A stretch of 64,000 nucleotides of DNA. Source: a virus. A program made the translations under genes and the position numbers. This document shows, in pieces, positions 3,796 through 64,000 of the stretch; position 1 is the stretch's first letter, and the number at the start of each line of letters is the position of its first letter. The stretch is taken from positions 1 to 64,000 of the IMG/VR virus record IMGVR_UViG_3300044613_003770. One strand, written 5' to 3'. Below the pieces are notes generated by a model. That model worked only from the letters and a program-made list of their open reading frames with translations. It was not told the DNA's origin and ran no database searches.

Positions 3796-4442
3796 TTAAG
3801 GTAGAGTTTATTGATAAAATGGGATCGGATATTTCTGTGGTTAATGCCGCAAGAGTTTCTTTCAATAAGAATTCTGATTATAATGAAGACGGAAGTTTCA
3901 AAGAAGGTGATGAAAAACTTATTGCTTTTTTAGCAAGAGAAAATCATTGGACTCCATTTGGTCACGCTTCACTTTCTTTTCATATTAAAGCGCCAATCTT
4001 TGTTGCTAGACAACTAGTAAAACATACTGTTGGTTTAGTATGGAATGAAGTTAGTCGCCGCTATGTAGACTCTGAACCAGAAATCTATTATCCAGATAAT
4101 TGGCGCAAAAAGAATGAAGATAAAAAACAAGGATCTCATGAAGATCAATTTGTAGATGTGTCTTTTGGAGATGACTGTAGTATTTATGCTAGTTGTCAAA
4201 TTGCAGTAGCAACTTATAAAAGCCTTCTCGCTTCTGGCGTTTGCGCTGAACAAGCTAGAATGGTTTTACCACAATCTACTATGACAGAATGGTATTGGTC
4301 TGGTTCTCTTCACGCCTTCGCTCGCGTTTGTAATCTACGTTGTAAAAAGGATACTCAAAAAGAAACTAGAGATGTCGCAAATCAAATTGATGAAATCGCT
4401 AAAGAACATTTTCCTGTTAGTTGGAAATATTTGAGACAATGA
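3792..4442 (+). CDS. thyX: FAD-dependent thymidylate synthase ThyX
   Basis: 216 residues, normal length for ThyX. Makes dTMP from dUMP with methylene-tetrahydrofolate, FAD and NADPH. Seen: 'AARVSF' near residue 19; 'HWTPFGHASLSFHIKAPIFVARQL'-type core; the ThyX motif as 'KHTVGLVWNEVSRRY' (variant of RHRxxSxNxxSRRY, with K-T for R-R at the first positions); and 'SGVCAEQARMVLPQS', the distal dUMP/FAD-binding helix. Overlaps neighbours by 4 nt each side. Supplies dTTP for phage replication. Confidence 0.95.
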   Translation: MIKVEFIDKMGSDISVVNAARVSFNKNSDYNEDGSFKEGDEKLIAFLARENHWTPFGHASLSFHIKAPIFVARQLVKHTVGLVWNEVSRRYVDSEPEIYYPDNWRKKNEDKKQGSHEDQFVDVSFGDDCSIYASCQIAVATYKSLLASGVCAEQARMVLPQSTMTEWYWSGSLHAFARVCNLRCKKDTQKETRDVANQIDEIAKEHFPVSWKYLRQ

Positions 4443-5018: not shown

Positions 5019-5046
5019 TTGACAAAAACACAAATTTGATTAAAAT
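5019..5046 (+). promoter_or_regulatory. Sigma70-like promoter for the RNA region
   Basis: TTGACA (5019-5024), 16-nt spacer, TAAAAT (5041-5046); start expected near 5053. No start codon or plausible ORF follows, so it should drive the structured RNA and tRNA genes downstream. Confidence 0.7.
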
Positions 5047-5052
5047 AAAAAT

Positions 5053-5262
5053 TGAGGGTAGTAAACACCAGAAGTTACTAAGGTCCGAAAGGGAGATTGG
5101 GTTGAGATAAACCTACTAATTAGAAAGTTTTATATACTTTGCCTTTAGAGGGGTTAAAGGGCTTCATGCCCTGTACTATAATGTAGATGACATGCAGGAC
5201 TGCGTATGCGGGTGCGTATGGGAATATATTATAGTCGCCTCTCTAACAGGCATCAATTTTCA
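5053..5262 (+). ncRNA. Structured non-coding RNA A (~210 nt)
   Basis: No ORF between the HNH gene and the first tRNA. Pairings visible: a long closing stem between GCCTTTAGAGGGG and CGCCTCTCTAACAGGC (about 12 bp) at 5141-5153 and 5236-5251; a GGGCttcatGCCC hairpin within it; CTATAAT/ATTATAG closing an inner domain; and 5' hairpins with loops CCGAAAGG and GGGTTgagatAAACC. It begins at a strong promoter and runs into tRNA-Met. It may be the 5' domain of a larger RNA continuing at 5516. Not a tmRNA (no tRNA-like end) and not a recognised family. Confidence 0.6.
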
Positions 5263-5439: not shown

Positions 5440-5514
5440 GCGGGATTCGTATATCGGCTAATATGTGAGTTTTCCAAACTTGAGAGATCAGTTCGACTCT
5501 GATATCCCGCACCA
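5440..5514 (+). tRNA. tRNA-Gly (TCC)
   Basis: Acceptor GCGGGAT/ATCCCGC, anticodon loop ttTCCaa, T loop TTCGACT, encoded CCA. Confidence 0.93.
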
Positions 5515-5515
5515 A

Positions 5516-6045
5516 TTTTTCCCTGCCATTGTAGGCGATGATCCTACAATGAGCATTGAGGCTAAGAGCGGGTTAGCAACCCGATGACGCTAAATGTAAT
5601 CCGACACAAATTAAAGTAGGCTTGGAGTCGCTACCAAGATGAAATAGTCACTGTGTTTCTTCAAATTGGTCAAAGCTCCGCTTGGCTAATTAATCGGTAG
5701 TGGGGAAAATACTTTGCGAGAGGGATCATACGGAGATCGCTAGGCCCATAGTCTAGAGTGGAGGTTAAATTCCTTCCCCTCGTGATTCGTATTCATACGC
5801 GATAAAGTATGACGTTGCTAGGAGCGGTTCCCTAGATAGTCACAGCCCTTGACGAGTCGTAGGCCGAAATGCTATGGGCAAATCATTTTCTATGTTTTTT
5901 CTATTGTGGTCTTTATCGCCCGAAGTATGTTGGGAAAGCAGATTGGAAATCTCCGACGAGCCTCTACTAGCAGAAAAGTGACAGAAGGATAAACAAGTGG
6001 TGTCTTTAAGACCAAAGCTTCTTCAGCAATAGAAAGTATTTTTAA
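5516..6045 (+). ncRNA. Large ornate non-coding RNA B (~530 nt) between tRNA genes
   Basis: 530 nt with no plausible ORF, flanked by tRNA-Gly and tRNA-Asn. Dense pairing: a perfect 9-bp hairpin CATTGTAGG/CCTACAATG (5527-5535/5543-5551); CGGGTT/AACCCG (5569-5574/5578-5583); CTTGG/CCAAG near 5623; CTAGGgagc/CCTAG near 5818; a long-range 8-bp GCCCATAG/CTATGGGC (5744-5751/5872-5879); and a 3' domain closed by GGTCTT/AAGACC (5908-5913/6008-6013) with inner TTATC/GATAA (5913-5917/5988-5992). Size, complexity and tRNA adjacency in a phage match the style of GOLLD and ROOL RNAs, but the family cannot be confirmed by eye. Confidence 0.7.
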
Positions 6046-6046
6046 C

Positions 6047-6122
6047 TCCAAAGTAGCTCAGTGGAACGAGCGGGAAGCTGTTAACTTCTAGGTCGTTGGT
6101 TCGATCCCAACCTTTGGAGCCA
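6047..6122 (+). tRNA. tRNA-Asn (GTT)
   Basis: Acceptor TCCAAAG/CTTTGGA, anticodon loop ctGTTaa, T loop TTCGATC, encoded CCA. Follows RNA B by one nucleotide. Confidence 0.95.
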
Positions 6123-11682: not shown

Positions 11683-12027
11683 ATGGAAGAAAAACAATAC
11701 GAACAACTCCAAAAATTGGTGATTAAATGGGCTGAGGATAGAAATATTTTTGAATATTCTAATCCAATCAAACAGTTGACGAAAACTCAAGAAGAGTTAG
11801 ATGAAACTATGGACGCTCTCGTTAAATTTATTGACGCTAAAAATGAAACAGAAAAAAATCAAGCGTTTCTTGAGGCGATTGATGGAATTGGTGATATGTT
11901 AGTTACAATTATTTTATTGGGCAAAATGATTAACATTGATACGGTAAAGGCTTTAGACACAGCTTATAATGTAATTAAAGACAGAAAAGGTAAAATGATT
12001 AACGGTTTATTTGTTAAAGAATCTTAA
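11683..12027 (+). CDS. MazG-like nucleotide pyrophosphohydrolase
   Basis: 114 residues, all helical. Metal-binding signature 'KTQEELDETMDAL' (E-E-x-x-E, ~35-47) and 'EAIDGIGDMLVTI' (~66-78, ExxD). Phage MazG-like enzymes hydrolyse NTPs or dNTPs and may modulate (p)ppGpp or clean non-canonical nucleotides. Stands alone between tRNA-Ser and a small basic protein gene. Confidence 0.82.
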   Translation: MEEKQYEQLQKLVIKWAEDRNIFEYSNPIKQLTKTQEELDETMDALVKFIDAKNETEKNQAFLEAIDGIGDMLVTIILLGKMINIDTVKALDTAYNVIKDRKGKMINGLFVKES

Positions 12028-12042
12028 ATAAATAATAAAAAA

Positions 12043-12174
12043 ATGGCAACTAAAACACTAAATAAAATCGATAAAAAAAGAGTAAAACGCAAGGGAATTC
12101 ATGCAAAAAGCAAGACTTCTCATTTGAAGCAGTCTAAAAATTATAAAAAACCCTATCGAAGGCAGGGTAAATAG
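12043..12174 (+). CDS. Very basic small protein (KGIHAKSK type)
   Basis: 43 residues, about 40% Lys/Arg, with 'KRKGIHAKSKTS' and 'SKNYKKPYRRQGK'. Similar tiny basic proteins occur in T4-like phages; nucleic-acid binding is inferred from charge only. Confidence 0.7.
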   Translation: MATKTLNKIDKKRVKRKGIHAKSKTSHLKQSKNYKKPYRRQGK

Positions 12175-12182
12175 TGTAATAT
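12174..12182 (+). promoter_or_regulatory. Late-type motif GTGTAATAT
   Basis: Ends 5 nt before the ATG at 12188; begins on the last base of the previous stop. Confidence 0.4.
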
Positions 12183-12187
12183 AAAAT

Positions 12188-12355
12188 ATGAAGAAAACAT
12201 TCATCATAATTATGTGCCTTTTCCAAGCCTCATGTGCTGGATTTATTGGGAGCGTAGATACTCCATACGGTTTCATTAAATTTAATGAAAAAAATGTAGA
12301 AATAGCACCAAAAGCTATTTCTTATGATGGAAAAGAAATAAAATCAACAAAATAA
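12188..12355 (+). CDS. Small predicted lipoprotein
   Basis: 55 residues. Signal sequence MKKTFIIIMCLFQASC with a lipobox-like QASC-A, Cys at residue 16. Followed 2 nt later by a membrane protein with holin-like features, so an outer-membrane spanin or an envelope immunity lipoprotein are both possible. Confidence 0.65.
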   Translation: MKKTFIIIMCLFQASCAGFIGSVDTPYGFIKFNEKNVEIAPKAISYDGKEIKSTK

Positions 12356-12357
12356 AT

Positions 12358-12564
12358 ATGAACTTAGAATTGACATTACAATTGATTACATCGGTGTTGC
12401 AAAATAGCCCATACTTGAGCATTTTTACTGCAGTCGTTACTTTGGCTTCAGCTATTGCCGCTTCAACCCCAACCCCTAAAAAAGGAAGCGTACTCGGCAA
12501 AGCATACAGAATTGTAGATATTCTCGCTTTAAATATTGGAAAAGCAAAAGACAAGGGACAATAA
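12358..12564 (+). CDS. Small membrane protein, holin-like
   Basis: 68 residues. One hydrophobic stretch at ~18-36 (YLSIFTAVVTLASAIAAS) followed by 'TPTPKKGSVLGKAYRIVDIL', a signature of a short phage protein family often placed near lysis genes. Partner of the upstream lipoprotein by position. Confidence 0.65.
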   Translation: MNLELTLQLITSVLQNSPYLSIFTAVVTLASAIAASTPTPKKGSVLGKAYRIVDILALNIGKAKDKGQ

Positions 12565-12576
12565 ACCAAAAAAACC

Positions 12577-12604
12577 TTGACTGCTGAAATTATTTGAATA
12601 TAAT
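12577..12604 (+). promoter_or_regulatory. Consensus promoter, leaderless
   Basis: TTGACT (12577-12582), 16 nt, perfect TATAAT (12599-12604), then 6 nt to the ATG at 12611. The clearest example of the leaderless arrangement. Confidence 0.8.
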
Positions 12605-12610
12605 GGACGC

Positions 12611-12733
12611 ATGACAGAAGAAATCGATAGACTTGAAGGAGCGTTTGACCGTTTGCAAGATCAATATGCCGCACTGCGGGAAGATGTTGAAAACATGATT
12701 GCAGTACTTCAAGGTCTAATTGGAGAGGAATAA
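12611..12733 (+). CDS. 40-residue coiled-coil protein
   Basis: One amphipathic helix (IDRLEGAFDRLQDQYAALRE...), likely a dimeric coiled coil. Has its own consensus promoter and its own terminator, so it is an independent, probably strongly expressed unit. Confidence 0.7.
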   Translation: MTEEIDRLEGAFDRLQDQYAALREDVENMIAVLQGLIGEE

Positions 12734-12741
12734 TAATAATT

Positions 12742-12768
12742 AAACCCCACCGAAAGGTGGGGTTTTTT
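12742..12768 (+). terminator. Rho-independent terminator
   Basis: AACCCCACC-GAAA-GGTGGGGTT followed by a T run; ends the 40-residue gene's transcript. Confidence 0.92.
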
Positions 12769-12781
12769 AATCAATAAAATT

Positions 12782-12991
12782 ATGACTACTTATTATCTAA
12801 GAGAAAAAAATACTGCTGGTAAAGAAATTACAATTGATTTTGGCGATTCTTTTGATTCGATTAATCAAAGATTTCAAAATTATTGCTCTAATTTCCCACA
12901 AAATAAATATAAAATTCTTAAAAAAGAAACTGTGACTTCAGTCGTTAAAGAATCTGAAGATTATAGACAGTCTTTATTTTCTTTTGTTTAA
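12782..12991 (+). CDS. Unknown small protein
   Basis: 69 residues, starts MTTYYLREKNTAGKEITIDF; mixed beta/alpha pattern, no family recognised. Confidence 0.6.
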   Translation: MTTYYLREKNTAGKEITIDFGDSFDSINQRFQNYCSNFPQNKYKILKKETVTSVVKESEDYRQSLFSFV

Positions 12992-13003
12992 AATCTGCAG
13001 TAT

Positions 13004-13024
13004 AGGTCAAGCTAGAGTTGACCT
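13004..13024 (+). promoter_or_regulatory. Operator-like inverted repeat 1
   Basis: AGGTCAA-N7-TTGACCT, a perfect 7-bp inverted repeat. A second site of the same design starts exactly 40 bp downstream and overlaps the rIIA-like promoter, so the pair looks like a repressor or activator operator. Confidence 0.6.
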
Positions 13025-13043
13025 GTTGCGAAAAATTCAAACA

Positions 13044-13064
13044 GGGTCAAAAAAATCTTGACCC
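13044..13064 (+). promoter_or_regulatory. Operator-like inverted repeat 2
   Basis: GGGTCAA-N7-TTGACCC; its right half is the -35 box of the rIIA-like promoter. Same half-site (GGTCAA) and spacing as the site at 13004. Confidence 0.6.
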
Positions 13065-13085
13065 CAACCATATTTGCTGTAAACT
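13058..13085 (+). promoter_or_regulatory. Promoter of the rIIA-like gene
   Basis: TTGACC (13058-13063), 16 nt, TAAACT (13080-13085), 9 nt to ATG 13095. Overlaps operator repeat 2. Confidence 0.75.
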
Positions 13086-13094
13086 GATTTCACT

Positions 13095-14987
13095 ATGAAA
13101 ACTGCCGCTATTGCCTCCCCAATTATTGCATCAGAAAACATGGAGAGTTCCGTAATGGGAATGGACTCCGTTGGAATGGATCTCGCAACATATTTCATGC
13201 GAGACAAGATCTATTCGAATAAGATTCGCGCAGTTGTGCGCGAGTATCTTTGTAATGCCGTTGATGAACATGTTAAATTTGATGTTAATCAACCTGTTCA
13301 AGTAGGTTTGCGCTCTGAAAACAACGAAGTTGTTTTTTATGTTCGTGATTATGCTAAAGGTCTTGATGAAGATGGTGTTCGCAACATTTTTGGAATGTAT
13401 TTCCGTAGTACAAAATCCAAATCGAACGATTCGATTGGTGGTTTTGGAGTTGGTTCAAAAGCGGGTCATTGCTACAATGATACATTTTTTGTCACCTCAT
13501 ATTTTAATGGTAAAAAAAGTGTGTACACTTGTATGCTTGGCGCTGGTGATTCTGGTGTTCCAGTTGGTCACATTTATAAAGTAGATGAGTGCGAAACCAA
13601 AGAAAGTGGTTTGGAAGTTTCTGTGCCAGTAAAGCATAGAGACTATACCTCTTTCGAAGAAGAGATTGATTTTTTTGTTTGTAATTCACCTCACGATATC
13701 GAATGTAAAATTTTTGAGCGTGAAACTTATAAACCAAATGAATTAGTTAATTCCATCGAATTCGATGGAATTAAAATCCGACTCTTAAAAACTAAAAACG
13801 AAAGTTATTCTTCTGGCAGTATTATTTTGCAAATGGGTGGAGTAACATATGGTCAGATTAGCATTTTTGAATTTGATTTTAAAATCAAAATGGGTCATGA
13901 GCTTTGTGTTGATATTCCAATTGGCTCAATGACTATTCCAATCAGTCGTGAATCTTTCGAGGAAACGCCTCAAAACAAAAATGTTATTAACCGCATTAAA
14001 GAAATCGTTCAAGAACTCGCTGATAAGGATCTTGCCCAATTTAAAGTCAAGGGTACTCTTGAACTTTTGAATGATCTTCTTGGTGGAATGCGGAATGGAG
14101 AATATGAGGGAAATGTTTTCTCATGCCGCACACAAAGTCTTTTTAAAGATGTTTGGAGCGTTGTTGGCAATTCTCACAAGCTATTTGATTCGGATGTGAC
14201 TAAAAAGAATGGCAAGCCAATTCTTGTTTCAATTCCAGATAATCATAACTCGGAGTACTGGCGTACAAAAGTTAGAAACTTTGCAAAAGATAACAATGAA
14301 AATTATTTTATTGTTTGTGAAAGCAGATTCTCTTCTAAAGATATTAATCCACAAAAAATTAATGATGCTTTAACTGTTATTTCTGCTAAGAAAATCAAAT
14401 ACCCCAAAGTAAAAAAGAATAATCAACTTTTTGCGGTATACGAACTTCATGGTAGAAAAATTGGTGAAATGACTTCTTTTGAGCTTCATAATCATGCTCG
14501 CGCACATAGAGGTCTTCCACTCGCAAGCGACGAAAATGAAGCAAGGGAACAGAATGAAGAGTATTTCTCTGACCTTGAAAAATGCGATATCGAATCTTTC
14601 ACTATCAGTTTAAAGAGTGGATCTCACCGATGCTATAGATGCAATTCAACATCTCTTATTAAAGAAATGAAAGAGTTGGGTTGGTTGGATTTCACCTCAG
14701 CAGAATGCAAAGAACTTCGGAGCAAACTTCAGAAACTTAAAGAAGAAAAATATCAGAAAAATTGCGTAATTAATGGTGCTAAAAAGTCATGGCTAATCTT
14801 TTCTGAAAAAACAGAAAAAAGAATTAAAGAATATAAAAACGCCAAACGTTTACAGGATCTGTGGGATAAAATTGATAAAGAAGATTCGACTCGCTCAAAG
14901 ATTATTAAATCTTTTAATAGTGGATCTTATTATTCCTCACCCAAATATTCTCGCGCCGAATTTAGAACCATCATGAAGTTGAAATAA
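13095..14987 (+). CDS. rIIA: rIIA-like membrane-integrity protector, GHKL ATPase fold
   Basis: 630 residues. The N-terminal GHKL ATPase has N box 'REYLCNAVDEH' (~48-58), G1 'VRDYAKGLDEDGVRNIFGMY' (~84-103) and G2 'GGFGVGSKAGH' (~119-129), as in T4 rIIA. The rest is a long charged helical region with a CxxC near residue 515. In T4, rIIA/rIIB affect lysis timing and resistance to RexAB exclusion; here an rIIB-like gene follows with its own promoter. Tightly regulated by its surroundings: two operator-like repeats upstream. Confidence 0.85.
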   Translation: MKTAAIASPIIASENMESSVMGMDSVGMDLATYFMRDKIYSNKIRAVVREYLCNAVDEHVKFDVNQPVQVGLRSENNEVVFYVRDYAKGLDEDGVRNIFGMYFRSTKSKSNDSIGGFGVGSKAGHCYNDTFFVTSYFNGKKSVYTCMLGAGDSGVPVGHIYKVDECETKESGLEVSVPVKHRDYTSFEEEIDFFVCNSPHDIECKIFERETYKPNELVNSIEFDGIKIRLLKTKNESYSSGSIILQMGGVTYGQISIFEFDFKIKMGHELCVDIPIGSMTIPISRESFEETPQNKNVINRIKEIVQELADKDLAQFKVKGTLELLNDLLGGMRNGEYEGNVFSCRTQSLFKDVWSVVGNSHKLFDSDVTKKNGKPILVSIPDNHNSEYWRTKVRNFAKDNNENYFIVCESRFSSKDINPQKINDALTVISAKKIKYPKVKKNNQLFAVYELHGRKIGEMTSFELHNHARAHRGLPLASDENEAREQNEEYFSDLEKCDIESFTISLKSGSHRCYRCNSTSLIKEMKELGWLDFTSAECKELRSKLQKLKEEKYQKNCVINGAKKSWLIFSEKTEKRIKEYKNAKRLQDLWDKIDKEDSTRSKIIKSFNSGSYYSSPKYSRAEFRTIMKLK

Positions 14988-63735: not shown

Positions 63736-64000
63736 ATGAACGTAATTGAAAGTTTATCATTAAGCATCTTCCAAACTGAGTTTGATGGAGATACAGGCAT
63801 TATGCCGCGCTCTTATATTTCAGGATGGCTCAGTGAAAATATAGGTTCTTTAAATACATTATTAAATACATCTTATAGTGGAATTGATTCAAATATAGAT
63901 TTAGAGGCTCAAGCTATATACAAAGAATTATACTTGGCTCACTATTATAGAAAACAATCTAGAAACGCATTAAGGGGAATTATAGATAGCTCTAATGGAC
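63736..64000 (+). CDS. Head-tail connector-type protein, N-terminal part (partial)
   Basis: Runs off the right edge; 88 residues visible. 'SLSLSIFQTEFDGDTGIMPR', 'SYISGWLSENIGSLNTLLNT' and 'AIYKELYLAHYYRKQSRNAL' resemble the start of neck/adaptor proteins in T4-like phages. Position right after capsid genes fits. Confidence 0.6.
   Translation, partial: MNVIESLSLSIFQTEFDGDTGIMPRSYISGWLSENIGSLNTLLNTSYSGIDSNIDLEAQAIYKELYLAHYYRKQSRNALRGIIDSSNG

Follow-up and report, generated by a model that had tools for sequence, protein, structure and literature searches.

A previously undescribed modular RNA in the tRNA island of an uncultured phage, with a predicted internal cloverleaf

The tRNA islands of phages harbour structured RNAs of open function, such as RNAC and RNAD of T4, GOLLD and ROOL. 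What, then, is the stretch of about 530 nt that interrupts the tRNA cluster of the virus studied here? The window, that is, the whole stretch analysed, runs from base 1 to base 64,000 of an IMG/VR virus record that is 85,303 bases long. Its source is an uncultured virus of bacteria, and it represents an uncultured lineage, since sequenced phages contain no more than remote relatives of its terminase (22-29% identity for the best listed matches). Fifteen tRNA genes were detected in the window, and positions 5516-6045 lie, as had been proposed, inside the cluster, between tRNA-Gly(TCC) (5440..5514), which has an encoded CCA and directly precedes the region, and tRNA-Asn(GTT) (6047..6122), which directly follows it; these genes, the modules and helices of the RNA and the promoter-like site described below are on the plus strand. 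The predicted absence of an ORF also holds: the longest ones encode 47 aa on the plus strand and 53 aa on the minus strand, none being credible, and length differences among homologues are not multiples of three. Judged from sequence comparison, 5516-6045 is a genuine structured RNA locus, non-coding and previously undescribed. The original prediction regarded it as one large ornate RNA, either a divergent member of the GOLLD or ROOL families or a new class.

Comparison of the window with all 4227 Rfam 15 models (cmscan) yields tRNAs only. For the region itself, at E values up to 10, there is one extra match within the RNA, a tRNA-like one at 5716-5784 (25.6 bits, the cut-off being 29), and neither OLE nor HEARO matches 5516-6045 in this search. 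Four divergent relatives (L043, L005, L009 and L049), compared with the same 4227 models at E up to 10, give chance-level or tRNA matches only. The GOLLD model (RF02032) has no match in the record of the window, nor in the cmscan of the window; over 13 records related to the module RNA it produces a single match of 4.9 bits, in record G005 and away from the RNA. Similarly, the ROOL model (RF03087) is without a match in the 13 related records and in the cmscan of the window, a negative that is the weaker for the control genomes giving no match either. The guess of a divergent GOLLD or ROOL is not supported by these searches. The models for the catalytic core of group I introns (RF00028) and for tmRNA (RF00023) have no match at the RNA of the window. 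They do detect group I introns (L038 4032-4221 and 8893-9087, L028 1584-1778) and true tmRNAs elsewhere in relatives, indicating that the method works on such DNA.

Several other RNAs were observed in the related contigs. The tRNA islands of L011, L015, L018, L019, L038 and L043 also encode tmRNAs, and abiF RNA (RF03085) matches above the cut-off in L016 (4001-4037) and L040 (10551-10587). Beside the module RNA, a tRNA-Asn gene is apparently split by a group I intron in L038 (the Rfam match at 4032-4221) and, by sequence likeness, in L043 (from about 6745 onward).

Homologues of the RNA are found in about 42 other viral contigs (IMG/VR; uncultured), which may sample related phages redundantly. 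Counted from the tables, the 5' domain, module A, is present in about 35 contigs including the window, and module B without module A in 8 more. Recruitment was based on a scan of IMG/VR with a 16-nt pattern and on blastn, additional patterns leading to distant members and a covariance model to the most distant ones; a relaxed module A pattern gave two more matches, in viral contigs L058 and L059. Every homologue examined in context is set in a tRNA island, and in several lineages module A begins 0-1 nt past the end of a tRNA, which may be Gly, Lys, Trp or Asp. Blastn of the copies from the window, L009 and L051 against 50,697 GenBank phage records revealed no homologue. In cellular genomes, for which the negatives rest on exact patterns or strict filters, the pattern of the B1 domain had no match (GTDB), and the module A model had none in 595 bacterial genomes, a negative of little weight given the strict filters and the absence of a positive control. 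Four module A pattern matches in GTDB are located in coding DNA and look like chance.

Module A (5516..5712) is the structured domain that defines the family. There is strong comparative evidence that its RNA structure, a junction of helices spanning 160-197 nt, is conserved: in the covariance model R1, with 20 sequences, 36 of the 54 pairs have changed on both sides. The 10-bp helix P1 (5517..5526 with 5700..5709) closes the domain, with four pairs changed on both sides and 96.5% of the cells paired. In the P2 hairpin (5527..5551; 5527-5534/5544-5551) all cells are paired (100%) and both-side changes affect 7 of 8 pairs. P3 (5553-5562/5589-5597, within 5553..5597) displays them in 7 of 9 pairs and is capped by the P4 hairpin (5569-5572/5580-5583), in which all four pairs have changed on both sides. 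The first helix of the P5 arm (5601..5697), 5601-5603/5695-5697, is invariant, while the remaining ones (5605-5608/5652-5655 and 5610-5613/5645-5648) covary. The same applies to two elements within this arm, the P6 hairpin (5621-5625/5634-5638) and the optional P7 (5664-5670/5685-5691), the latter being absent in 6 of the 20 sequences.

In an alignment of 18 sequences, both-side changes occur in 26 pairs and in 62 cells, against 13.5 in shuffles. A covariance model built from these sequences found L009/L010 at 65 bits and L011/L013 at 53 bits, over the full length; these copies, which were reached by the model alone without being part of it, share just about 52% identity with the window and again directly follow a tRNA-Gly(TCC). 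Once L009 and L011 are added, 36 pairs are affected and the number of both-side cells rises to 106 (shuffles: 19.5 ± 4.3), but because this 20-sequence alignment was fitted to the covariance model, the 18-sequence count is the less biased one. Shuffle controls ignore relatedness, which is partly addressed by two further counts: with slid partners 9-26 both-side cells are left, against 106 in the true pairing, and in a parsimony count on a tree the double-change branch events number 58, as compared with 2-9 for slid partners. The many stems of the original prediction do not translate into an unusual stability of the whole region (MFE z = -1.1, 14 of 100 shuffles being as good); they are borne out in the homologues and in module A, which by itself folds with z = -3.7 relative to shuffles. 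A structure kept with extensive compensatory changes, combined with the lack of any match in Rfam 15, speaks in favour of the guess of a new class. It could be imagined that the locus is instead the decayed remnant of something known (a group I intron, a tmRNA, or a copy of GOLLD or ROOL), as relatives have genuine introns and tmRNAs of these types nearby. However, the models find the real copies in these same phages and not the module RNA, and the compensatory changes maintain its structure; decay is already contradicted by covariation and its probability is practically nil.

Module B has two parts, of which B1 is the cloverleaf and B2 the 3' module. RNAalifold and single-sequence MFE predict B1 (5714..5785) to be an internal tRNA-like cloverleaf with an acceptor (5714-5723/5777-5785), a D-like arm (5724-5727/5735-5738), an anticodon-like arm (5740-5744/5752-5756) with the loop CCCATAG, and a T-like arm (5760-5764/5772-5776); the domain folds into this shape by itself when a single sequence is used. 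B1, and only this domain, has the cloverleaf layout of tRNA (RF00005), its D-like loop containing GG and its T-like loop TTAAA. In contrast to a tRNA, it is internal, lacks CCA, contains C for U33 and A for C56, and remains with its 25.6 bits below the cut-off of 29; the copy of L043 has no tRNA match up to E = 10. The B1 core is 98.6% identical among 19 sequences and, in the same genomes, mean identity amounts to 98.7% for this core versus 84.6% for A and 81.9% for B2. The loop is kept in 19 of 19 sequences; the first homologue search demanded an exact match to 16 nt of B1, and a B1 pattern with an unconstrained loop recovered only members of the set already found. The near-invariance could partly be a reflection of recent spread. 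As the acceptor, D-like and anticodon-like helices hardly vary, covariation says little on the inner helices, and the predicted fold is mostly derived from one set of acceptor changes and from folding.

On the 3' side of the cloverleaf, a hairpin (5793..5812; 5793-5797/5808-5812) has one pair changed from A-U to G-C in six sequences. B2 (5818..5883) consists of a hairpin (5818-5822/5831-5835) and a helix (5845-5848/5876-5879), with compensated pairs in both. In L005, B2 is joined to module A without B1. Altogether, B1 is missing from six of the lineages that carry module A (L005, L007/L048, L049, L051, L009/L010 and L011/L013), so that it must be module A that provides the core function.

Modules are exchanged in other contexts as well. 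A different 5' module of about 240 nt replaces module A before module B in L043, L030, L031, L032/L023 and L033/L039; its copies are 93% identical, which is too little variation for a structure test. B2 recurs as the 3' portion of a different structured RNA, unrelated to the present one (L039 1088-1157, L030 8098-8179, L043 5258-5339). Short CCA-ending tRNA-like RNAs are present in L043 (4931-4985) and L039 (1160-1240), the former seeming, by eye, to be without an anticodon arm.

A long-range pairing of 8 bp, between 5744-5751 and 5872-5879, had been stressed in the original prediction. In the window the two strands are indeed complementary, but the pairing is not borne out by the homologues, with no compensatory change and a mismatch in 8 of the 19 distinct ones. 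Its 5' strand is the anticodon-like loop of B1, which is invariant while the partner changes, and the GGGC of the partner pairs locally instead (5845-5848 with 5876-5879, with C-G becoming U-A in three sequences). This local helix is retained in L005, which has no cloverleaf. No variation is seen at the inner pairs of this long-range complement, leaving room for a contact that may be transient. Compensatory changes in homologues therefore sustain module A and not this pairing.

The 3' part, module C (5897..6040), had been described as a closed domain. This receives modest support from an outer stem (5900-5907/6026-6033) and an inner stem (5909-5913/6008-6012), each with one compensated pair in a comparison of seven sequences that form two effective groups. 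Module C seems to be a separate unit. In L018, a 395-codon ORF (11981-13156), flanked by TTTTTCTATTGTG repeats and without Pfam or PHROG match, is inserted between modules B and C, and in L015 a C-like start continues into a B2-like end. Furthermore, in the window an AU-rich linker of the tRNA type separates B from C, whereas there is none between A and B; 52% of tRNAs are followed by TTTT within 12 nt, the background being 10%, and such AU-rich linkers flank both A plus B and C. On the basis of the insertion, the C/B2 join and the linker pattern, the locus can be read as RNA-1 (modules A and B, 5516..5886), with homologues in viral contigs, and RNA-2 (module C). In the lineage of the window A, B1 and B2 are joined to about 371 nt, with C as a separable neighbour. 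Hence, what was seen as one RNA of about 530 nt is indeed structured RNA, but probably in two units, and the element is modular instead of one ornate domain.

How would these RNAs be produced? The only strong promoter-like match, TTGACA-16-TAAAAT at 5019..5046, precedes the whole cluster; it matches the consensus at 11 of 12 positions and is a consensus match only, such matches being no more frequent region-wide than in shuffles. The terminator scan found no terminator-like site inside 5516-6045. Both observations are in line with a single upstream promoter from which the RNAs and the tRNAs would be transcribed together. Excision by tRNA-processing nucleases is suggested by the linkers, the tight spacing past CCA ends and the tRNA that comes next: the enzymes that separate the tRNAs would cut at the AU-rich linkers, both those past CCA ends and the one that divides B2 from C, and RNase P would cut at the next tRNA. 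These features have also led us to consider that the modules merely aid the folding and correct cutting of a long tRNA transcript, as a processing or spacing element acting in cis. Tight packing among the tRNAs, the linkers in common and the absence of a strong promoter and a terminator of their own would fit. On the other hand, the highly conserved internal loops and B1 exceed the needs of a spacer and the upstream neighbours vary by lineage, making such a role rather improbable.

Two further elements were noted ahead of the RNA. Just 3' of the cluster promoter, 5054-5128 is a conserved leader-like stretch (AGGTCCGAAAGGGAGATT) common to L028, L038, L048 and L049. Upstream of tRNA-Met, 5136-5262 is another conserved structured non-coding RNA (folding z = -5.1), with compensatory changes at 12 pairs among 8 sequences and without Rfam match.

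The closest parallel in setting is offered by RNAC and RNAD of T4, small stable RNAs from the tRNA region with unknown role (PMC3014915, PMC9697503). Like the module RNA, these are structured, non-coding and placed immediately behind a tRNA within a phage tRNA cluster, rnaD being 1 nt from tRNA-Arg and rnaC next on the map, and RNAC has a T-arm-like hairpin. However, they measure 119 and 139 nt and their folds contain no internal cloverleaf; the module A model, with filters off, has no match in the T4 tRNA cluster (best 6.2 bits, E 0.17). GOLLD, a large and structured RNA of phages, is found close to tRNA islands, has two domains and sometimes includes tRNAs, and ROOL adjoins tRNA islands and is of a similar length class (659 nt for ROOL env-120) (PMC12286853). 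Many GOLLD members exceed 800 nt and share a universally conserved 3' region, whereas here it is the 5' module A that recurs most widely; ROOL differs in that its model has no match here, nor in the control genomes. All of these are best regarded as analogues of the module RNA and not as relatives. By analogy, copies of the RNA might assemble into a multimeric cage or particle made of RNA only, as GOLLD and ROOL do. The same genomic setting and a two-domain plan, with the GOLLD linker sometimes holding tRNAs (PMC12286853), would agree with this. Yet, the module RNA is smaller and unrelated to both by sequence or model, and its modules shuffle and occur singly, which is disfavoured for a cage with fixed contacts; we consider such an assembly no more probable than the spacing element.

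The explanation that we favour, and hold to be somewhat more probable than not, is that of a new family of structured non-coding phage RNA in tRNA islands, which would be excised with the tRNAs and act in trans, its cloverleaf mimicking a tRNA. Less certain than the excision is the role in infection, in which RNA-1 might work in its folded form with module A as the functional scaffold. Contact with a host tRNA-handling factor is suggested by the cloverleaf and the degree to which it is conserved, and B1 might engage such a factor without serving as a translating tRNA; candidate partners are the ribosome, a tRNA-binding enzyme or a tRNA-cleaving defence nuclease. Mimicry cannot be the whole function, given the six lineages that carry module A without B1. 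A related possibility is an anti-defence decoy, in which the cloverleaf baits or inhibits host nucleases that cut tRNA anticodon loops in infection. This would account for the location of B1, the near-invariance and a loop without U33 that is constant in all 19 sequences, and phage tRNAs have been proposed to evade anticodon nucleases by changes in the anticodon loop (PMC10264068). Nevertheless, no link to a nuclease or to defence was found and the core of the family, module A, exists without B1 in the lineages mentioned; a decoy seems unlikely, slightly less so than the cage or the spacer.

The module RNA joins the known RNAs of phage tRNA islands as a further family, unrelated by model to GOLLD, ROOL and, for module A, T4 RNAC/RNAD, and of unusual modular build. 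With its unusually clear comparative support and the predicted embedded cloverleaf, functional tests can start from an alignment, a covariance model and a set of helices open to mutation. One may speculate, at odds comparable to those of the decoy, that the islands make interchangeable RNA modules, some tRNA-shaped but non-translating, for a joint RNA counter-defence or a takeover of the tRNA machinery. More generally, the finding points to considerable under-annotation of the non-coding RNAs that uncultured phages carry in their tRNA islands.
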